NCBI RefSeq assembly: GCF_020991455.1
Contig: NZ_JAJMOX010000009.1
Coordinates: 1-64,000 of the forward strand
Direction: 5' to 3'
Length of the DNA stretch: 64,000 nt
Source: Flavobacterium sp. JAS
GTDB lineage: Bacteria; Bacteroidota; Bacteroidia; Flavobacteriales; Flavobacteriaceae
How positions within the stretch are numbered: the stretch's first letter is position 1; each line of letters starts with the position of its first letter. Positions 48,406 through 63,999 of this stretch are shown here, in pieces. The notes below the pieces were generated by a model. It made no database searches. It was not told the DNA's origin and saw only the letters and a list, made by a program, of their open reading frames with translations. The position numbers and the translations under genes are program-made.

Positions 48406-51258
48406 TTAGTTTTCTTCCATATAAGCTTCAATAGGAGCACAGCTGCAGATTAAGTTTCTATCTCCAAAAGCATCATCAGCTCTTCTAACTGAAGGCCAGA
48501 ATTTGTTTTCGGCAATATATTCTAATGGGAAAGCAGCTTGTTCTCTTGTATATGGAAATTCCCAAGTTTCAGAAGTTAGCATTGCTAAAGTATGAGGAGA
48601 ATTTTTTAATACGTTGTTGCTGTCTTCAATTGTTGCAGCTTCAATTTCTTTTCTGATAGAAATCATAGCCTCACAAAAACGATCTAATTCTTCTAAGTTT
48701 TCACTTTCAGTTGGTTCGATCATTAAGGTTCCTGCAACCGGGAAAGAAACTGTTGGTGCGTGGAAACCGTAATCCATTAAACGTTTTGCGATATCCGTTA
48801 CTTCGATTCCTTTTTGTTTGAAAGGACGACATTCTAAGATCATTTCGTGAGCTGCACGACCCATTTCTCCAGAATATAAAGTATCGTAGTGACCGTTTAA
48901 TTTTTCTTTAATATAGTTTGCGTTTAAGATTGCATGCTCTGTAGCGCTTTTTAATCCATCAGCACCAAGCATCGAAATGTATCCGTAAGAAATCAAACAT
49001 ACTAAAGCAGATCCCCAAGGAGCAGCAGAAATAGCTGTAATTGCAGTTTCTCCTCCTGTTGGAATTACCGGATTTCCTGGTAAGAAAGGAACCAATTGTG
49101 GCGCTACACAAATAGGACCAACACCTGGACCTCCACCACCGTGCGGAATCGCGAATGTTTTGTGTAAGTTCAAGTGACAAACGTCAGCTCCAATTGTAGC
49201 AGGATTTGTTAATCCAACCTGAGCATTCATGTTTGCACCATCCATATAAACTTGTCCACCATTATCGTGGATAATTTTTGTAATTTCCTGAATAGCACTT
49301 TCAAAAACTCCATGTGTAGATGGGTAAGTTACCATTAAACATGAAAGGTTATCTTTATGAAGAATTGCTTTTTCGCGTAAATCTTCAACGTCGATATTTC
49401 CATTTTCAAGAGTTTTTGTAACCACAACTTTCATTCCCGCCATAGCAGCAGAAGCCGGGTTTGTACCGTGAGCCGATGAAGGAATCAAAGCAATATTTCT
49501 ATGATCGTCTCCACGAGATTGGTGGTACGCACGAATTACCATAAGTCCTGCATATTCTCCTTGTGCACCTGAGTTAGGTTGCAAAGTAGTTCCTGCAAAA
49601 CCAGTAATTACGTTTAATTGCTGCTCTAATTTTTTTAACATTTCCTGGTATCCTTGCGCCTGATCAAGTGGAGCAAATGGATGAATGTTGTTCCAGTTTG
49701 GGTTACTTAACGGAAGCATTTCTGCAGCAGCGTTCAATTTCATTGTACAAGATCCTAACGAAATCATCGAGTGATTTAACGCTAAATCTTTACGCTCCAA
49801 CATTTTGATGTAACGCATCAAAGCTGTTTCCGAATGGTATTTGTTGAAAACATCATGCTCTAAGAAAGCAGAAGTTCTGTTTAAGTTTTCTGGGTAATGA
49901 TTTGTTTCTGTTAATTCAGAAACTGTAGTTGCTTTTAAAGAAAGTGCTGTAGCAAAAATATTGATAATGTCATTAACATCAGAAACGCTAGTAGTTTCGT
50001 TTAATGAAATTGAGATTGTATTTTCGTCTACATAGTAAAAGTTTACTTCATTTGCTTCTGCAACCGCTTTTACTTTTTTAGCATCAGCTTTAACTAAGAT
50101 AGTGTCAAAGAAAGCGGAGTTAACTTGCTCTAAACCTAAGTTTTTCAATTCGTTTGCCAAAGTTGCAGCCGCAGCATGTACTTTGTCAGCAATGTATTGT
50201 AAACCTTTTGGTCCGTGATAAACTGCATACATACCAGCCATTACAGATAATAATACCTGTGCAGTACAAATGTTTGAAGTTGCTTTATCACGTTTGATAT
50301 GTTGTTCACGAGTTTGCAAAGCCATACGTAAAGCACGGTTTCCGTTAGTGTCAATAGTAACACCAATGATACGTCCCGGCATGCTTCGTTTGTATTCTTC
50401 TTTAGTTGCAAAATACGCAGCGTGAGGACCACCGTAACCTAACGGAATTCCGAAACGTTGTGTAGTTCCAACAACGACTGCGGCACCCATTTCTCCCGGA
50501 GGAGTTAATTTAGCTAAGCTTAAAATATCAGCAGCAACCGCTACTTTAATTTCGCTTGCAGCAGCTTTTTCGATAAAAGCAGTATAATCGTAAACTTGTC
50601 CGTACTTTCCAGGGTATTGTAAAATAGCTCCGAAGAATTCTGTAGAGAAATCAAAAGTTTCATGGTTTCCAATTACTAATTCAACTCCAATTGGTGTTGC
50701 ACGAGTTTGTAAAACTGAAAGTGTTTGAGGTAAAATTTCTTCAGAAACGAAAAATTTATTTACGTTATTTTTCTTTTGGTCACGAGAACGAACGTCTAGT
50801 AATAAAGCCATAGCTTCTGCAGCAGCAGTTCCTTCATCTAATAAAGAAGCATTTGCAATTTCCATTCCTGTTAACTCGATAACAGTAGTCTGGAAATTTA
50901 AAATCGCTTCAAGACGACCTTGTGCAATTTCAGCCTGATATGGAGTATAGGCAGTGTACCATCCCGGATTTTCAAAAACATTACGTTGAATTACAGCAGG
51001 AACAATTGCCTGATTGTAACCTAAACCAATATATGTTTTAAAAAGTTTATTTTTGTTTCCTAATTGCAGAATATGGTTTGAAAACTCATACTCCGTCATC
51101 GCTGGATCTAAGTTTAAAGGTGCTTTTAAACGAATGTCATCTGGAAGGGTTTCATAAACAAGTTGTTCGATCGATTCAACTCCAATGGTCTGTAACATGT
51201 GTTGAAGATCTGTTTCTCTTGGACCAATGTGTCTTAAAGCAAAAGCATCTGTTTTCAT
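48406..51258 (-). CDS. gcvP: Glycine dehydrogenase (decarboxylating), P protein
   Basis: 950 aa, the fused form with both halves (N- and C-terminal homologous halves). The pyridoxal-phosphate Lys is in [17 protein letters not shown], with the Gly-rich loop beyond it. Start [18 protein letters not shown] and [15 protein letters not shown] are family landmarks. It decarboxylates glycine and passes the aminomethyl group to the H protein. I saw no glycine riboswitch upstream. gcvT and gcvH are not adjacent. Confidence 0.97.
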
Positions 51259-51393: not shown

Positions 51394-52206
51394 ATGATAG
51401 TATCAAAACGGATATTAGATTTTTACCTGAATAGCAGTATTCATGTGGCCTTATCGTGTTACGCATTGGTGCGAATCACGTTTCATGTGTTTCATATTCA
51501 GTATGATGAGCCAATGGCGCTGTTTACTTTTTTTGGAACAATTGTAGGATATAATTTTGTTAAATACGATGCTTTAGTCCGCGTTAAAAAAAATCCAATC
51601 GGAAATCAGTTAAAAATTATTGCTGTTTTGAGTTTTATTTCGGTGATTTTGGTGGGGTATTATTTTTTCCATTTAAAAAGAATTACTCAAATTGTCTCTG
51701 TCGGGATCTTTGCCATAACGGCACTTTATACACTTCCTTTTTTTCCAAACAGAAAAAATGCCCGAAATTGGGCAGGAGTAAAAATTTATATTGTAGCGCT
51801 TTGTTGGGTGGGAGCAACACTGGTTTTGCCTTTAATAAATGCCGAAATTTCGTTTACAAGTGACTTCTTTATAAAATGCATTCAGCGTTTTATTTTGGTT
51901 TTTGTACTGATTTTAGTTTTCGAAATTATTGATTTGGCTAATGATGATCCGCATTTACAAACTGTTCCGCAGACCATTGGCGTTAAGCGGACTAAAATTT
52001 TAGGGTTTTTATTATTAGTTCCGTTTTGGGGTTTAGAGGTTTTTATATCTACTTTTAATTATCATGATGCTTTTATTAATCTGATAATGGTTATAATGTT
52101 AATGTTGTTCATCGCATTTGCAAACCCCAATCGCTCAAAATACTATACTTCTTTTTGGGTCGAAAGTGTTCCAATTTTTTGGTGGCTGATGATTGTTTTT
52201 CTTTAA
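51394..52206 (+). CDS. UbiA-like integral membrane protein
   Basis: 270 aa, about eight hydrophobic helices. GTIVGYNFVKYDALVRV resembles the first prenyltransferase motif with Asn and Asp spaced four apart. The second (YTLPFFPNRKNARNWAGVKIYIVALCW) has the loop seen in bacterial homologues. The second Asp-rich motif (FEIIDLANDDPHLQTVPQTIGVKRT) keeps the D-x-x-x-D and the following T-x-x-x-G. Some UbiA-family members transfer prenyl groups; others are uncharacterised. The substrate is unknown. Confidence 0.75.
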   Translation: MIVSKRILDFYLNSSIHVALSCYALVRITFHVFHIQYDEPMALFTFFGTIVGYNFVKYDALVRVKKNPIGNQLKIIAVLSFISVILVGYYFFHLKRITQIVSVGIFAITALYTLPFFPNRKNARNWAGVKIYIVALCWVGATLVLPLINAEISFTSDFFIKCIQRFILVFVLILVFEIIDLANDDPHLQTVPQTIGVKRTKILGFLLLVPFWGLEVFISTFNYHDAFINLIMVIMLMLFIAFANPNRSKYYTSFWVESVPIFWWLMIVFL

Positions 52207-57459: not shown

Positions 57460-57571
57460 TCATCTTATTACATTTTTTTTCTTACATCTTCCTATCTAAA
57501 ATAGCTTTGATATAGAAAATTAAAGAAAAATTAGTTTTCTAAGTCATTCATTATCAGGTAATGAGTGAAAA

Positions 57572-57676
57572 ATGAAAGAGTGGAGCAGAACCCACTGAAA
57601 AAACGAACTGTTTCGCACAGTTAAAAGCGAAGGCGGATCTGAAAAGCCTCATGAGTAGGACCAAAAATTAATTATC
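57572..57676 (+). ncRNA. Structured 5' leader, copy A, upstream of the 217-aa gene
   Basis: Three hairpins run into the start codon: AGTGG/CCACT, AACTGT-TTCGC-ACAGTT, and AGGC/GCCT enclosing CTGAAAA. The conserved tail is GAGTAGGACC followed by A-rich DNA. From CTGAAAA to the A run, 25 of 29 bases match the leader at 58603-58693, and its second and third stems are replaced there by compensating pairs. It may be a cis-regulatory RNA. No known riboswitch class matched by eye. Confidence 0.55.
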
Positions 57677-58330
57677 ATGCAAGCAATACCAGTAAAAGTA
57701 AAAAATGTAAATGTGTATCCGTATGTCGATTGGAATGGTGGGGGAGTTGGACCCGTTATTCTTCCGGTTGTTGAAGGAGCCAGCGGAACCTATGCTGTTG
57801 GTACACTTATCAGGTCAGTATTCTACAATCTAGATTTACAGACTAAAAATTCTAAACTTGGCATACACCAGAAGTATGTAGCAATTGGAGAGACAGAAGA
57901 TGGTACTCCATTTACAACTCCGTGGATGTACAGTACAAATGTAACTAACGAAGCAGAGTTTGGCAGAACTATAACACTTAATCAGCCAAATTCAGAAGCA
58001 ATTAGCGCAGTAAGTGTGCCGCCTTATATCACACTTGGCCCTCTAACTGATATTACCGTTTCTCAGCTATTTCCTGCACCGGCAATAGGAGAGAGACTGT
58101 TAATTGAAAATGGTTCAGGTAATGTTATTGCAACCAGAACAGGTACACCACACGAAATGGGAGTTGAGGTAATCAGCGGTAATCGTTCAGGAAAATTAGT
58201 GGTTGGGATGAAAAATATCATCATTTCAGGAAAAAACAAAGAAGGAAAAACAGTCACTTTTGGACATCTAACTTGTTTGAATCCAAATGAACCAGCGATT
58301 TTTCTGCATCAATTTGGTTCGAATGAGTAA
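57677..58330 (+). CDS. Unrecognised 217-aa protein of the RiPP-like locus
   Basis: No family recognised. Soluble, no signal, and mostly beta-strand-forming (VKNVNVYPYVDWNGGGVG, TYAVGTLIRSVFYNL, GRTITLNQPNSEAISAVSVP, SGKLVVGMKNIIISG). A single Cys is near the C-terminus (FGHLTCLNPNEPA). The leader in front of it is shared with the second DUF1843 peptide, so both are expected to respond to one signal. It could be a partner, a sensor or a structural protein of the locus. It is followed by its own strong hairpin. Confidence 0.7.
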   Translation: MQAIPVKVKNVNVYPYVDWNGGGVGPVILPVVEGASGTYAVGTLIRSVFYNLDLQTKNSKLGIHQKYVAIGETEDGTPFTTPWMYSTNVTNEAEFGRTITLNQPNSEAISAVSVPPYITLGPLTDITVSQLFPAPAIGERLLIENGSGNVIATRTGTPHEMGVEVISGNRSGKLVVGMKNIIISGKNKEGKTVTFGHLTCLNPNEPAIFLHQFGSNE

Positions 58331-58337
58331 AGAAATA

Positions 58338-58383
58338 GGACAATCTCTTTTATAGAAAAGTATTTTTTATAAAAGAGATGTCC
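58338..58383 (+). terminator. Terminator-like hairpin after the 217-aa gene
   Basis: GGACAATCTCTTTTAT and ATAAAAGAGATGTCC form a strong stem around a 15-base loop, followed by a short CTTTTAC. The T run is brief, so readthrough into peptide 1 is likely partial. Confidence 0.7.
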
Positions 58384-58421
58384 CTTTTACAAATAAGTAA
58401 TAACCGCTAAAAACAACAACT

Positions 58422-58598
58422 ATGGGAGTAATTATGCCTTATGGTGTCGCTATCAGAGAAGCTATAGCTTCAAACGATTTGACTAAAATGCAGGCTATTG
58501 CCGAGCAAGCCAAAAAAACAATAAAAGACCAGGGAGATCTGGGCGGCGCTTTGTTAGAATTGCTGGATGCGATAGACGCTCTAAAAAATAAAAAATAA
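58422..58598 (+). CDS. DUF1843/GDL-type precursor peptide 1
   Basis: 58 aa: MGVIMPYGVAIREAI, then KKTIKDQGDLGGALLELL and an acidic end. The opening (MG-V-x-x-x-Y-(A/G)-x-x-IREAIASNDL) and the following A-E-Q-A-K-K are the DUF1843 form. It contains the GDL motif used, as I recall, to name an associated radical SAM/SPASM maturase family. No Cys. The radical SAM gene lies 350 bases downstream. Predicted role: ribosomal precursor peptide. No promoter leader of type A/B precedes it. Confidence 0.75.
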   Translation: MGVIMPYGVAIREAIASNDLTKMQAIAEQAKKTIKDQGDLGGALLELLDAIDALKNKK

Positions 58599-58602
58599 TA
58601 GA

Positions 58603-58693
58603 GCCCTCTAAAAACAAACTGACTTGTACAGTAAAACAAGGGTGTAGCTGAAAAACCTTAAGAGTAGGACTAAAAAACAAAAAACAAACTATT
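58603..58693 (+). ncRNA. Structured 5' leader, copy B, upstream of precursor peptide 2
   Basis: TAGAG/CTCTA, then AACTG-ACTTGT-ACAGT, then AGG/CCT enclosing CTGAAAA, and finally AAGAGTAGGACTAAAAA. The conserved parts equal those of copy A at 57604-57667, while stem bases change in pairs. It ends about 17 bases before the start codon. Confidence 0.55.
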
Positions 58694-58864
58694 ATGGGAG
58701 TAACAATGCTTTACGCAGCAGGAATCAGAGAGGCGATCGCTTCGAATGATTTAGAAAAAATGAAGGCAGTAGCTGAACAGGCGAAACAAACTGTAAGAGA
58801 ACAAAAAGATTTACACGCAGCGTTGTTAGAATTGCTAGAAGCAATCGACACTTTTAGAAAGTAA
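58694..58864 (+). CDS. DUF1843/GDL-type precursor peptide 2
   Basis: 56 aa: MGVTMLYAAGIREAIASNDL, then a K-rich middle (EQAKQTVREQKDLHAALLEL) and LLEAIDTFRK. Clear paralogue of peptide 1 (identical IREAIASNDL and ALLELL blocks), but the GDL triplet is KDL here. It carries leader copy B and precedes an intra-operon terminator, so it should be the more abundant, separately regulated peptide. Too short to be found without looking for it. Confidence 0.75.
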   Translation: MGVTMLYAAGIREAIASNDLEKMKAVAEQAKQTVREQKDLHAALLELLEAIDTFRK

Positions 58865-58871
58865 TCTTTAC

Positions 58872-58912
58872 AAAAGACGGTTTATCAAGTTTTACTTCTT
58901 AAACCGTCTTTT
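58872..58912 (+). terminator. Attenuator-like terminator between peptide 2 and the maturase
   Basis: AAAAGACGGTTT and AAACCGTCTTTT are perfect 12-base arms with a 17-base loop, followed by TTTAATTAATT. It lies between the stop of peptide 2 and the radical SAM start, so peptide message should exceed enzyme message. Confidence 0.82.
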
Positions 58913-58943
58913 AATTAATTGTCAAACCGTAAACAAAACTAAG

Positions 58944-60374
58944 ATGGATACTATTAAGACCTCAACACGATACAGAGTAAGAGATGATTACAAAACTGCC
59001 ACCCCCGTTCATGTAGTGTGGGAAATAACATTAGCCTGTAATCTGAAATGCTCGCATTGCGGATCCAGAGCCGGAAAGGTAAGACCGGGTGAATTAACGA
59101 CGGAACAATGTTTTGGTGTTATTGATAGTCTTAAACGTCTTGGCACCAGAGAAATTACGATTATTGGCGGAGAAGCTTTTTTAAGAAAAGACTGGCTCGA
59201 AATTATTGAAAGAATACATCAAAGCGGAATCGAATGCTCGATGCAGTCCGGTGCTTACAATTTAACCGAAGAGCGAATTGTTGATGCGAAAAAAGCAGGA
59301 ATACGAAATATTGGAGTTTCTATCGACGGAATGCCGGAAACTCACAATAAAATACGAGGAAGAAGAGATTCTTTCGAACACGTAATAAATTGTCTGCAAC
59401 TGCTTAAAAAACACAATATACCATCTAGTGTGAATACTGTAATTACTAAAAGGAGTAAAAATGAGCTGAATGAATTACTGGATGTTTTAATTGAAAATGG
59501 AGTGAAAAACTGGCAAATACAGCTTGCTGTTGCCATGGGAAATGCTGTTGACAATTCGGAAGAATTGATAGTACAGCCCTATGAGTTAAATGATTTTTAC
59601 GACAATCTGATTGTCATCTACCGAAAAGCCTTAGTGAATAATGTGTTGATACAGGCAGGAAATAACATTGGTTATTTTGGACCGTATGAGCATATCTGGA
59701 GACAGGGCAATGAAAAATATTATACCGGATGTTCCGCAGGACATACAGGAATAGGAATTGAAGCCGACGGAAAAATTAAAGGCTGTCCATCATTACCAAC
59801 AAGTGTGTACACAGGAGGTAATGTAAAAGACATGAAGCTAGAGGATATCTGGAAATACAGTGAAGAAATGGTTTTCTCCAGATATAGAAATAAAGAAGAG
59901 TTATGGGGAGGCTGTAAAGGCTGCTATTACGAATCTTCTTGTTTGGCCGGCTGTACCTGGACGAGTCACGTGTTGTTTGGAAAGAGAGGAAACAATCCTT
60001 TTTGCCATCATCGAGCCCTTGAGTTAAAAAAGAAAGGACTTAGAGAAAGAATAAGAAAAACACAAGAAGCACCGGGACTATCTTTTGATATCGGGCTTTT
60101 TGAAATCATAGTTGAAAATGAAAAAGGAGAAATTGTAGAAATACAATCGCCTAACGATACTCCTGTAATTCCACCATCAGACCATACAGACAGAGTTCCG
60201 AGAATACCAAAAGCACTGAAGTTATGCAATGGCTGTGACAATTACGTCTATGAAGAAGAACATACTTGTACTTTTTGCAATGCTGACATTGAAAAGGTAA
60301 ATAACGAATATGCTGTTAAGATGGAAAAAGCAAAACGTTCACTGGAAAAATTAGAATTGTTAATGATGAAATAA
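58944..60374 (+). CDS. Radical SAM/SPASM peptide maturase, GDL-peptide-associated type
   Basis: 476 aa. Radical SAM motif CNLKCSHCGSR (CxxxCxxC) near residue 30 and TIIGGEAFLRKDW (GGE) follow. The SPASM region shows GCSAGHTGIGIEADGKIKGCPSLPTS and CKGCYYESSCLAGC with many Cys for auxiliary clusters. A further C-terminal CNGC, eleven residues, CTFC set (near 428-445) forms a zinc-ribbon-like tail not usual in SPASM enzymes. It should modify residues of one or both nearby peptides. I recall the name GDL motif peptide-associated maturase for this type. Confidence 0.9.
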   Translation: MDTIKTSTRYRVRDDYKTATPVHVVWEITLACNLKCSHCGSRAGKVRPGELTTEQCFGVIDSLKRLGTREITIIGGEAFLRKDWLEIIERIHQSGIECSMQSGAYNLTEERIVDAKKAGIRNIGVSIDGMPETHNKIRGRRDSFEHVINCLQLLKKHNIPSSVNTVITKRSKNELNELLDVLIENGVKNWQIQLAVAMGNAVDNSEELIVQPYELNDFYDNLIVIYRKALVNNVLIQAGNNIGYFGPYEHIWRQGNEKYYTGCSAGHTGIGIEADGKIKGCPSLPTSVYTGGNVKDMKLEDIWKYSEEMVFSRYRNKEELWGGCKGCYYESSCLAGCTWTSHVLFGKRGNNPFCHHRALELKKKGLRERIRKTQEAPGLSFDIGLFEIIVENEKGEIVEIQSPNDTPVIPPSDHTDRVPRIPKALKLCNGCDNYVYEEEHTCTFCNADIEKVNNEYAVKMEKAKRSLEKLELLMMK

Positions 60375-60375
60375 T

Positions 60376-60954
60376 ATGGAGCAGTTAAAAAATATTCAAT
60401 CTGAAATTGATCAGCATTCGCATCATATTGAAGAAGGTTTAAGCCTTTCGGAAATTACCATTAAGTATGGTCTGAATTCTTACCGGTATGGATCGTCCAG
60501 TTTTTTGGGTGACCTTTTTGATCCTATTCCAATCACAGACAAAACAGTGTTTTATGATTTAGGCTCAGGGTATGGAAATATTATTTTGTATGGAGCTGTA
60601 AAATATCCGGACACTCAGTTTATAGGAATTGAAATTCTGGAAGAGCGAAACAAAGTTTGCGTTGATTTAATCGAAAAAGAAGGAATCACAAATGTTAGGG
60701 CAATTTCAGGCGATATCTTAAAGACTGATGTTTCCGACGGGAATGTTTTTTATCTGTACAATCCTCTTTATGATTTTCAATACACGGCTTTACTGGATAA
60801 ACTATATCAGATCTCTTTAAACAAGACCATTATTGTAATTGCCGAGTCTCGCTGTATCTTTTTTGATGAAGCCCAATGGTTAGAACAATATCATTTTAAA
60901 GACATTGATGTGATCCGGAAAATTAAATATTACCGCTCTAAATCTGCTAAATAA
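60376..60954 (+). CDS. SAM-dependent methyltransferase of the RiPP-like locus
   Basis: 192 aa. Motif I: VFYDLGSGYGNIILYGAVKYP with the following FIGIEIL; the acidic post-motif (SGDILKTDVSDGNVFYLYNPLY) is typical. One base separates it from the maturase gene. It may methylate the peptide, or another product of the locus. The substrate is inferred only from location. Confidence 0.82.
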   Translation: MEQLKNIQSEIDQHSHHIEEGLSLSEITIKYGLNSYRYGSSSFLGDLFDPIPITDKTVFYDLGSGYGNIILYGAVKYPDTQFIGIEILEERNKVCVDLIEKEGITNVRAISGDILKTDVSDGNVFYLYNPLYDFQYTALLDKLYQISLNKTIIVIAESRCIFFDEAQWLEQYHFKDIDVIRKIKYYRSKSAK

Positions 60955-60988
60955 ATCAAATCAATAAATAATCTAAAATCAAAAAGTT

Positions 60989-61819
60989 ATGGCTAGTTTA
61001 AGTTCAATTATTCTTCCGGTTCTTGAAGGAATGGAAGAATCACATTTAAAAGATCAATTATTAAAATTCCTTCCAAATCAGGAAGAGGCATTTTCAAAAA
61101 TTGAAAAAAGTTTCAATCAATTGACCTCGAAAGTTCAGGATAAAGAGCGTTTACAGCGTTTTTTTCACAGTTGGAGCCAAACTAATAACAGTGCAATGAC
61201 CGTTTCCGGAATTAGCAACCGCATGACCATGCTGGTTCATAAAAACCAACCTATTGCAGACGAAAAAGCACTATTACAGTCTATCACCAGTTTAAACCGA
61301 ATTGTTGATGAAGATCTGGCGGTTGTTGGGAGAATTTTGCATTCGCAGTTGTTTTATACGATGGCAACTACAATTTGTGCAGATGATGAATGGCTTTCAC
61401 GCCGATATTTAAATCAAAGTGCTTGTGATTTTAAAGCATGGAAAGATCAAAACTCGCTTCGAAATAAAGACATCATGATCGCTTTATTGACCACTTTGAT
61501 ACATGAAATTTATACGCATGGCGAAGTGGAATTGATATTGCCAAAATTTCAATCCTGGCTGGCAAACGATTATGGTTTCACCGAAGAAGAAAGTGATAAA
61601 ACACTGGCCTGGATAAGCGTTCATTGTGGTCCAACAGAGAAAAACCATTTCTTCTTTGCCGTTAATTCTATTTTCCACTATGCAAAAGCAATGAATGTTG
61701 ACCTTGAGGCGTATGATTTAGAATCAATTGTTAACGACTATTTAGCTAAGAAATCGGCTGTTATGGTGGATCTTATGGAAGTGGAAGAATTAAGTTTTAA
61801 ATCTATATACCAACAATAA
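60989..61819 (+). CDS. All-helical protein with a heme-oxygenase-fold-like pattern
   Basis: 276 aa, nearly all helix. Towards the C-terminus, ALLTTLIHEIYTHGEVELILP is followed by WISVHCGPTEKNHFFFAVNSIFHYA, giving H-x3-E-x2-H. This spacing resembles the last helix of TenA/PqqC and heme-oxygenase-like diiron oxidases. An earlier FFHSWSQTNNSAM offers another His. Family placement is a hypothesis. If correct, an oxidation or cleavage of the peptide is possible. Confidence 0.5.
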   Translation: MASLSSIILPVLEGMEESHLKDQLLKFLPNQEEAFSKIEKSFNQLTSKVQDKERLQRFFHSWSQTNNSAMTVSGISNRMTMLVHKNQPIADEKALLQSITSLNRIVDEDLAVVGRILHSQLFYTMATTICADDEWLSRRYLNQSACDFKAWKDQNSLRNKDIMIALLTTLIHEIYTHGEVELILPKFQSWLANDYGFTEEESDKTLAWISVHCGPTEKNHFFFAVNSIFHYAKAMNVDLEAYDLESIVNDYLAKKSAVMVDLMEVEELSFKSIYQQ

Positions 61820-61849
61820 TTATTACAAAGAAATAAACTTCTACGCAAT

Positions 61850-63079
61850 ATGTCAAAAATTAAATTGCAACAAAATCAAGCCGATAAACAAGAAAAGTGG
61901 GATCAATTGTTTTTTCAATATTTTCAGAAAGATAAAGGATTAAACAGAGATTCTTTTGCTAATTCTTCTGTAATTCTGTCTACGGAATATAGCGGGCAGA
62001 TGAATCATTTGTGTGCTGTTTTAAACAAAGCCTGTAAAGCGATTGTTTTGAATTATTTTGAAGACGACAGAATTCGGAACTATTATCAACTGGATAATGA
62101 CCTTGAAGCTTTATTGCGAAAAAGTAATAGCCAAATATACAATCAGGGTTTTTATCGCCCTGATTTTTTATATGACAAAAACGATCAGCCCAAAATTTGC
62201 GAAATAGGAGCACGATATCCGCTAAACGGCTGGATGATCAGTTACTATTCGCATTTGATGAACAATCAGACCAATACTTCTGAAGGCAGTTTAAATACCA
62301 GAGATACGGCTTTAGAAAATCTTGTTAACGATATATACCATCAGTTTGCTCCATATAAAAAAGTAGCACTTATTCATGATGACGAAAAAGGAAGCGATAT
62401 TTTCAATCTTCAATGGGAATTAGCAAAACTAAAAATTGAACTAATTTCTGCAAGACCTCAGGATCTAATCGTTTCAGATAATTCAATACAGGTAAACGGA
62501 ACACCAGTTTCGCAATTTATACTGGAAATGGATCGCGAAGAACTGAAAAAAATAAGTCCGGATGTGTTGGACAAGTTAATTGAAGAAAACTGTTATTTCA
62601 ATGATATTCGAACTTTAATTTTAATCCATGATAAAAGGGTTTTGGCTGTCATGTACGATTCTCAAATCATGCTTGATTACCTGAGTGAAGAGGATTATGG
62701 CTTTTTGCAGGATTATCTCATCCCTAGTTTCGTGATAACAGATCCTGCCGGCTGTGATGCCTTTATCAATTCTGAAGAGAATCTGATCTTAAAATTAAAT
62801 AGTGGAGGAAGAGGAATCGGGGCCTATGTGAAAAATGATTGCACAACCGAAGACTGGAATACTATTATCAAAGAAAATTGGAATAAATACCTGATTCAGC
62901 ATTTTGTAGACCAAAAAGAATTTGACGATGTCCAGAATAATCGTCAGATTTATTTAGTGGGGATGTTGCTTTGTAAACATGACAAAACGTATGGATCCGG
63001 GATATTTCGAGGCTCAGATGAGTCTGTTGTAAATGTACACCAGGGCAGAGCTTTGATTTATCCAATAGTAGCACAATAA
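61850..63079 (+). CDS. ATP-grasp-like protein of the RiPP-like locus
   Basis: 409 aa. FYRPDFLYDKNDQPKICEIGARYPLNGW resembles the metal-binding E-x-x-x-R-x-P end of glutathionylspermidine-synthase-like and related ATP-grasps. LILKLNSGGRGIGAYVKND is a flexible ATP-binding loop with Lys. The order (acidic motif first, loop later) suggests a circularly permuted fold. It may form an amide or ester bond on the peptide. Confidence 0.6.
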   Translation: MSKIKLQQNQADKQEKWDQLFFQYFQKDKGLNRDSFANSSVILSTEYSGQMNHLCAVLNKACKAIVLNYFEDDRIRNYYQLDNDLEALLRKSNSQIYNQGFYRPDFLYDKNDQPKICEIGARYPLNGWMISYYSHLMNNQTNTSEGSLNTRDTALENLVNDIYHQFAPYKKVALIHDDEKGSDIFNLQWELAKLKIELISARPQDLIVSDNSIQVNGTPVSQFILEMDREELKKISPDVLDKLIEENCYFNDIRTLILIHDKRVLAVMYDSQIMLDYLSEEDYGFLQDYLIPSFVITDPAGCDAFINSEENLILKLNSGGRGIGAYVKNDCTTEDWNTIIKENWNKYLIQHFVDQKEFDDVQNNRQIYLVGMLLCKHDKTYGSGIFRGSDESVVNVHQGRALIYPIVAQ

Positions 63080-63084
63080 AAAAT

Positions 63085-63999
63085 ATGAAACATACAGTTG
63101 TTATACCTCTTTATAATAAGGAAGCCTACATCTTTGATACGATTAAGTCCTTGGCTTTTCAGGAAAAAAAAGCGGCACAAATTATCATTGTAGATGATTT
63201 TAGTTCAGATAAGAGTCTGATTAATTTAAAAGATTCCTTGTCCTTTTTTGCTCCACAGTTTTTACAGACAGACATTCAGATCATTGAATTAAAAGAAAAC
63301 AAAGGTCCGGGCAATGCGAGAAACATGGGGTTAGAACTGGCAACTGGAGATGTTATAAGTTTTTTGGATGCAGACGATTGTTACATTTCTTCTTGTTTGA
63401 ACGATGTTAATGCTATTATGGAGCAGGAGAAAATAGACGTTTTGATTCTTGGAATTGTATTGATTCCCTCCAATTATTATTTGCCAAACATCAAATCGTT
63501 TGAAAAAGAATTGATTTCCCTTTCTAATGATCTGTTTTTAATACCAGATCCGTTGCACACCGTTAGTGCTCCGGATTTTATCATGGGGGTCGGCAGTAAT
63601 GTGGTGATTCAAAAAACACACCTGAAAAACATTCGCTATGAGACTGATGTTTCCTTAAATGAAGGAATTGATTTTTGGTACCGTGTTTTAAAAAATGTGC
63701 CACAGCAATCCCGTGTTGGATTATTGAATAAAGCTTCCATCGAAGTAAGAGAGGTTGAAGGCAGTTTGTCCCGCATTAGCTATTCGAATTGGAAAGAATT
63801 AGAGATTCCTGTTTCAATAAAAAGATATTATAAAAGTACAAATCGGTACGATCAGCAATTAATGGGAATGTTGTCGCAGCGATGGCTGTCACACGCAATG
63901 AAGCGATTACCATCGTGGAAGGAAAAGGCTCTGTTTCTTTTCAAGCATCACAGACTCTTAGTTAAAAACAGTTACTATTTAAAAAAACGAAGTAAATAA
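63085..63999 (+). CDS. Family 2 glycosyltransferase of the RiPP-like locus
   Basis: 304 aa. GT-A motifs: HTVVIPLYNKEAYIFDTIKSL, IIIVDDFSSDKS, KGPGNARNMGLELATGDVISFLDADDCY with a DADD metal site. It follows the ATP-grasp gene by five bases. It could glycosylate the peptide or belong to an unrelated surface pathway entering from the right. Its stop is the last codon but one in the window. Confidence 0.88.
   Translation: MKHTVVIPLYNKEAYIFDTIKSLAFQEKKAAQIIIVDDFSSDKSLINLKDSLSFFAPQFLQTDIQIIELKENKGPGNARNMGLELATGDVISFLDADDCYISSCLNDVNAIMEQEKIDVLILGIVLIPSNYYLPNIKSFEKELISLSNDLFLIPDPLHTVSAPDFIMGVGSNVVIQKTHLKNIRYETDVSLNEGIDFWYRVLKNVPQQSRVGLLNKASIEVREVEGSLSRISYSNWKELEIPVSIKRYYKSTNRYDQQLMGMLSQRWLSHAMKRLPSWKEKALFLFKHHRLLVKNSYYLKKRSK

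Follow-up and report, generated by a model that had tools for sequence, protein, structure and literature searches.

A DUF1843 peptide locus of Flavobacterium with a candidate backbone-splicing maturase and a second, separable enzyme unit

Introduction

The subject of this study is a gene cluster at the end of a 64,000-nucleotide stretch of Flavobacterium sp. JAS (contig NZ_JAJMOX010000009.1, positions 1 to 64,000, forward strand; hereafter the window). Two small peptides of the DUF1843 family precede a radical S-adenosylmethionine (SAM) enzyme of the SPASM type, called here the maturase, and several further enzyme genes. Among described systems, backbone splicing is carried out by PlpX, a member of IPR026482 that excises tyramine from Xaa-Tyr-Gly (PMC11002830) and whose natural sites are MYG and LYG (PMC10533398). 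Reviews describe the spliced products as protease inhibitors and the reaction as widespread (PMC10373908, PMC11117315). A second system with parts in common is the biosynthesis of E-64, which uses the oxygenase Cp1A, the ATP-grasp enzyme Cp1B and the ANL-family ligase Cp1D; Cp1B joins an amino acid to trans-epoxysuccinate, and the amine is added by Cp1D (PMC12568646).

DUF1843 peptides have been met in transcriptome studies. A DUF1843/DUF1842/maturase operon is recorded in Chromobacterium (PMC12114271), and DUF1842 and DUF1843 genes carry consecutive locus tags in Burkholderia thailandensis (PMC12322963). DUF1843 was also chosen as a possible assembly protein because of its repeated paralogues in operons, and the available text reports no higher-order assembly for a DUF1842-DUF1843 fusion (PMC10994174). 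The maturase family itself is named in NCBIfam (TIGR03913, GDL-peptide maturase). The original prediction, made from the letters of the window, called the locus uncharacterised; given the named family and the recorded operon this was too strong, and what stands is that no product of DUF1843/maturase loci is described in the literature searched. In the part of this literature that was read, splicing is not connected with DUF1843, DUF1842 or TIGR03913; the most relevant paper, by Scott et al. (Chem, 2022), may already make the connection. Nor does this literature contain the leader RNA at such a locus or the separable amide-ligase unit described below, at which no search was aimed.

Peptides and maturase

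All open reading frames (ORFs) expected of the cluster were found in the window by ORF calling, on the forward strand. The conserved order is two DUF1843 peptides, maturase, methyltransferase, a protein of 276 amino acids (aa) named HOX276, an ATP-grasp ligase, a glycosyltransferase and, past the window end, an AMP-forming ligase. From the maturase onward the gaps are 1, 34, 30 and 5 bases, in agreement with the predicted 1 to 34, and the operon runs beyond the window, since the AMP-binding protein starts 12 bases after the glycosyltransferase stop. In a collection with a single genome for each species, 16 further Flavobacterium records show this order, whole or in part; therefore the arrangement is not due to chance.

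Peptide P1 (58422–58598, 58 aa) begins M-P-Y-G and holds a GDL motif, and P2 (58694–58864, 56 aa) begins M-L-Y-A and has KDL in its place. Both pass the Pfam DUF1843 threshold (2e-13 and 4.8e-12; 51.2 and 46.7 bits, for a gathering value of 23.3). Two DUF1843 peptides of 56 to 58 aa beside a radical SAM/SPASM maturase had thus been predicted correctly, and the name "GDL peptides" fits P1 only. Similarity to P1 and P2 yielded 78 DUF1843 ORFs, each of which matches Y[GAM]xx[IVM]x[ED]A. The tyrosine of an N-terminal X-Y-[GAM] is invariant in the 47 distinct peptides, and it forms one of six invariant columns of the alignment. The residue before it is L in 21 peptides, P in 18, M in 6 and A in 2; the residue after it is G in 32, A in 13 and M in 2. 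With respect to the X-Tyr-Gly splice motif, P1 has PYG and P2 has LYA, with no Gly. At the equivalent position of the DUF1843 part, the DUF1842-DUF1843 protein in the Protein Data Bank (PDB 8t0b) reads MYGVAI. PF08898 was found in 8 of 395 Bacteroidota genomes, in five of them as a marginal match within a long frame. Cysteine occurs in only one of the 47 peptides, inside a longer C-terminal tail (locus L021), which argues against thioether chemistry; sactipeptide and ranthipeptide reactions were set aside on this ground.

The maturase (58944–60374, 476 aa) exceeds the Pfam cut-offs for both its Radical_SAM and SPASM domains, and its CX3CX2C cysteines (C32, C36 and C39) are invariant in all 16 sequences aligned. 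The best NCBIfam model was TIGR03913 (535.8 bits, curated cut-off 591.75) and the second TIGR04103 (423.8 bits, cut-off 725). The third scored 163.9 bits, about 260 below TIGR04103. The same two models ranked first and second in all five relatives scanned, from three phyla (Kordia, Aureibacter, Azospirillum, Nostoc and Tropicibacter). The Kordia and Aureibacter maturases, too, fall below the curated cut-off of TIGR03913, and that of Azospirillum does not. We take TIGR04103 to be the class of PlpX and IPR026482 to be the same family; adjoining DUF1843 peptides are presumably a feature of TIGR03913, judging from the name and use of that family. At E <= 1e-90, TIGR03913 was found in one of 299 Flavobacteriaceae genomes, the window's own; like those of PF08898, such matches were too scarce to serve for a wider comparison.

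Among these relatives, the Nostoc TIGR04103 gene adjoins a 71-aa gene and a Nif11 precursor whose last residues, IALYGLPPELF, include LYG. On a Tropicibacter oceani plasmid (2088–9392 of locus L048) the maturase scores equally to TIGR03913 and TIGR04103, and its neighbours are another radical SAM gene, trypsin-like and M23 peptidases and a 193-aa hypothetical protein.

The ranking of TIGR03913 and TIGR04103, together with the invariant Tyr of X-Y-[GAM], makes backbone splicing the most likely reaction. We put the probability that the maturase splices the DUF1843 peptides at this tyrosine at about 0.6, as judged from sequence. In P1 and P2, tyramine would be excised at X-Tyr, with a mass change of -135.0757 Da. 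With the PlpX/PlpY spliceases and their spliceotides the locus shares the second-best model, by a wide margin, and X-Tyr-Gly in P1 and most peptides.

Several points weigh against splicing. The maturase scores below the curated cut-offs of both families. Fifteen of the 47 peptides, P2 with its X-Y-A included, have Y-A or Y-M, whereas known splice sites have Y-G. The candidate site lies at the N-terminus of a small protein devoid of a Nif11/NHLP leader, and not in a C-terminal core after such a leader. No separate PlpY-type partner was recognised among the genes beside the maturase, where no formal search for one was made; the maturase does carry a C-terminal Cys4 extension, absent from the Nostoc relative. 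Finally, the 193-aa protein of Tropicibacter, the putative precursor there, has no clear X-Y-G. SPASM maturases vary widely in chemistry. The enzyme might therefore catalyse another radical SAM reaction in the Tyr region, such as a crosslink, an epimerisation or a change of the Tyr side chain, its kinship to spliceases being purely phylogenetic; the Y-A and Y-M sites and the Tropicibacter relative fit this. We consider it unlikely, because the next model outside the GDL family trails TIGR04103 by about 260 bits and because X-Y-G, X-Y-A or X-Y-M is present in every DUF1843 peptide collected.

Linkage of the enzymes across genomes

Homologous loci were sought by a pattern scan over 84,980 species, one genome each, which finds close relatives only. 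It gave 19 related loci, 16 in Flavobacterium and three in Kordia, and DUF1843 peptides precede the maturase in all of them. The peptides also lie beside the maturase in the records of Azospirillum (two of three matches fetched) and Aureibacter. In a set of 299 Flavobacterium genomes they adjoin it in 11 of the 11 that bear the maturase; the two sets overlap, probably sharing species, and are not independent. The pairing of peptides and maturase, as first proposed, is thus supported.

The other enzymes are distributed differently. All 16 Flavobacterium loci have a related glycosyltransferase, and 15 have the methyltransferase. HOX276, the ATP-grasp ligase and the AMP ligase each occur in 14; in every one of the 16 loci these three genes are jointly present or jointly absent. 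All five genes are missing from the three Kordia loci, where none of the four enzymes predicted to follow the maturase lies within 9 kb of the peptides and maturase. Aureibacter has three DUF1843 peptides, the maturase and a methyltransferase side by side, and the remaining cluster enzymes have no match there. Peptides and maturase are therefore the core, often accompanied by the methyltransferase, and the trio of HOX276, ATP-grasp and AMP ligase stays together.

Three further cases bear on the second set of genes. In locus L030 the peptides, maturase and glycosyltransferase are kept, and all that lies between the last two is an ATP-grasp relic of 21 residues (E 0.002). Locus L042 keeps these genes and the methyltransferase, with a relic in which HOX276 residues 1–23 (E 0.003) precede residues 312–394 of the ATP-grasp protein (1.2e-31). 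In L075 the peptides and maturase are followed by DUF1842, and the four further enzymes are absent from the 14 kb retrieved. We read such absences as losses. The converse is seen in genome G402 (L074), where open frames of 270, 421, 307 and 399 aa correspond to HOX276, ATP-grasp, glycosyltransferase and AMP ligase. In the 16 kb retrieved there, neither the peptides nor the maturase nor the methyltransferase had a match, and no maturase was found in the whole genome at E <= 1e-70. This unit sits at the corresponding place: it adjoins relatives, as judged by eye, of two genes upstream of the cluster in the window, which we take to be gcvP-like (48406–51258) and UbiA-like (51394–52206).

The original prediction had five enzymes act on one product. 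Its fuller form is a single hybrid product, in which six enzymes would successively splice, methylate, oxidise, amide-couple and glycosylate a DUF1843 peptide. The tight operon and conserved order speak for it, as does the presence of HOX276, ATP-grasp and AMP ligase together in 14 of the 16 Flavobacterium loci. So does co-occurrence in the 299 genomes: the maturase (E <= 1e-70) was found in 11, HOX276 (E <= 1e-5) in 10 and ATP-grasp in the same 10, with nine genomes having both maturase and HOX276, two the maturase only, one HOX276 only and 287 neither (Fisher p = 1.2e-14, relatedness ignored). In addition, the glycosyltransferase kept in L030 and L042 is not strictly tied to the second unit. 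The hybrid is weakened by the loci that have one part alone: L030, L042, L075 and the three Kordia loci have peptides and maturase with no HOX276, ATP-grasp or AMP ligase, and G402 has the reverse. We consider a single product for all the enzymes to be improbable. That DUF1843 proteins are structural or self-assembling, with the maturase substrate lying elsewhere, is very improbable: the family was indeed selected as a possible assembly protein and a DUF1842-DUF1843 fusion exists, but no higher-order assembly of that fusion is reported in the available text (PMC10994174), and peptides and maturase are neighbours in the 19 loci as well as in Azospirillum and Aureibacter.

The preferred arrangement is thus that HOX276, ATP-grasp ligase, glycosyltransferase and AMP-forming ligase would constitute a second, separable unit, co-located with the peptide unit and not strictly required by it.

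Enzymes of the cluster

The methyltransferase (60376–60954) was confirmed as a class I SAM enzyme by Pfam and NCBIfam, and a 43% identical homologue stands beside the Aureibacter maturase. Its substrate is probably the small protein on which the maturase is proposed to act. The glycosyltransferase (63085–63999) is of family 2 (3.1e-26). In three of the 16 Flavobacterium loci (L028, L031 and L032) a second glycosyltransferase, about 50% identical, lies between the methyltransferase and HOX276.

The ATP-grasp protein ATPG409 (61850–63079, 409 aa) has no Pfam family above cut-off, and was identified as predicted by a profile match to Cp1B (PDB 9cjn, E 1.3e-14). The alignment covers two stretches, profile positions 38–205 and 218–338. 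Assuming an inferred numbering offset of 15 between the paper and the PDB chain, the Cp1B substrate-site residues R139, D141 and E163 correspond to R103, D105 and E118 of ATPG409, invariant in 12 of 12 sequences aligned, and the fourth, N165, corresponds to G120. The AMP ligase matches Pfam AMP-binding at 4.5e-07 (29.4 bits, narrowly under the cut-off of 29.9) and the NCBIfam DVU1553-type ligase at 5.9e-15, below cut-off.

HOX276 (60989–61819) was proposed to have a heme-oxygenase-like fold; neither this fold nor the metal ligands of a heme-oxygenase-like diiron oxidase could be confirmed. It has conserved His and Glu residues, and its model is all-helical, at low confidence (mean predicted local distance difference test, pLDDT, of 45.9). 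No NCBIfam or Pfam family came above cut-off, no credible PDB sequence match was found, and a fold search with this poor model gave nothing at E <= 0.001.

The second unit most likely makes a small amide-linked molecule in the style of E-64, with the ATP-grasp and adenylating enzymes forming amide bonds. The comparison is a likeness of parts: a Cp1B relative and an AMP-binding protein in one operon, with a candidate oxidase. In contrast to E-64 biosynthesis, no epoxysuccinate synthase or Fe(II)/alpha-ketoglutarate oxygenase was recognised at the locus, N165 of Cp1B is replaced by Gly, and the unit is linked to a peptide maturase.

Leader RNAs

Two structured leaders resembling the DUF805 RNA (RF03081) were found in the window, one upstream of the first gene of the cluster, A217 (57575–57665, 35.2 bits), the other upstream of P2 (58614–58674, 34.7 bits); both score below the gathering threshold of 51.1, and homologous leaders occur in the 16 relatives. 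They share with RF03081 the GUGGAG hairpin (A217 leader), the GGC..GAAAAGCC hairpin and the 3' GAGUAGGA. They differ from it by an extra CUG..CAG hairpin, whose loop covaries with downstream bases to form a pseudoknot. A strong copy (75.8 bits) precedes DUF1842 outside the window (C66:67276).

In the 16 Flavobacterium loci the leader core GAAAARCC is found before A217 (15/15), DUF1842 (11/11) and the last peptide (16/16). Of the 16 first peptides, only that of L030, a locus that has lost A217 and keeps an A217-type leader, is preceded by the core. The core was absent before maturase (0/16), methyltransferase (0/15), HOX276 (0/14), ATP-grasp (0/14), glycosyltransferases (0/19), AMP ligase (0/10), and the 592-aa (0/6) and 495-aa (0/8) genes, as well as before the Kordia peptides (0/3). 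Rows not starting near the first residue, including four of the AMP ligase and the Kordia maturases, were dropped from this count, and several enzyme genes have little room for a leader because they start 1 to 34 bases after their predecessor.

The proposed structure pairs in 97.3% of cells over 33 leaders (30 distinct), versus 88.4% for shuffled and at most 55.2% for slid controls. In the pseudoknot helix, both partners have changed in four of five pairs. Clear support was missing from two of the five measures: the double-change pairs were reached by 15 of 500 shuffles, and pair types were fewer than in all 500. The double changes mostly divide two leader types, and so represent few events; L031/L032 and L042 contribute more.

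A terminator-like hairpin with a T run (58872–58912) lies between the last peptide and the maturase, as in 16/16 Flavobacterium and 3/3 Kordia loci, according to single folds with no statistical control. It would be expected if the peptides were made in excess over the enzyme. Together, leader and hairpin would uncouple the expression of small proteins and enzymes.

Elsewhere in the genome, a strong RF03081 match (79.6 bits, C44:158933–159000) precedes a 90-aa protein, and a weak one (E 0.05, C44:180010–180069) lies ahead of a 68-aa bacteriocin-like peptide of the double-glycine type. Further weak copies are followed by membrane and exported proteins. The DUF805-like leader may mark small-product genes more widely. 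The weak copies and the copy number are uncertain, since at E <= 1 matches were found in four of 14 control genomes (over the cut-off in one) and 150 of 1357 first-look candidates were scored.

Neighbouring genes

A217 (57677–58330, 217 aa) was matched in 15 of the 16 Flavobacterium loci, partially in L029 (residues 1–103). NCBIfam and Pfam scans assigned no family to it, and its AlphaFold model was unusable (pLDDT 32.5). An imperfect inverted repeat, 81% complementary, was found by repeat search downstream of it (58334–58388). The genes past the window end code, in order, for the AMP-binding protein (398 aa), a 592-aa protein, DUF1842 (137 aa), and proteins of 495 and 231 aa. PDB profile searches with the A217, 592-aa and 495-aa families gave no credible match.

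The DUF1842 protein was identified by Pfam (1.3e-19) and matches the solved DUF1842 protein 8t0b weakly (E 0.0031). In Kordia aestuariivivens a DUF1842 gene (L039:14469–14903, Pfam 5.5e-26) lies about 4 kb from the DUF1843/maturase pair. In relatives the 495-aa gene (L003:4916–6403, C66) accompanies DUF1842, and the two lie now on one side of the cluster, now on the other. Its product has a hydrophobic N-terminus and a CxxCH invariant in 7 of 7 sequences aligned, and may be c-type cytochrome-like, to go by this motif.

Discussion

The locus resembles the GDL-peptide maturase systems (TIGR03913) in its best-scoring family and its adjacent DUF1843 peptides, and has a DUF1842 gene nearby, as in the Chromobacterium operon (PMC12114271) and Burkholderia thailandensis (PMC12322963). 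It differs from them by the addition of methyltransferase, HOX276, ATP-grasp, glycosyltransferase, AMP ligase, A217 and RNA leaders. A more far-reaching picture can be drawn, in which the product of a spliceotide system would be a small folded protein, and not a cleaved peptide, with a ketoamide in its N-terminal region and a beta-barrel DUF1842 partner, alongside an E-64-like amide-ligase pathway. One locus would then yield protease inhibitors of two kinds, and a pseudoknotted DUF805-like RNA would control the genes of the small proteins. Taken as a whole, this picture is decidedly unlikely.

DUF1843/GDL peptides, known mostly by name, now yield a prediction of a single mass shift that is testable in E. 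coli. The DUF805 RNA gains a concrete gene set on which its function can be tested. As the distribution of the enzymes indicates, closely spaced genes do not have to serve a single product. If the maturase does splice, ribosomal backbone splicing would share its locus with a separable ATP-grasp/AMP-ligase unit.

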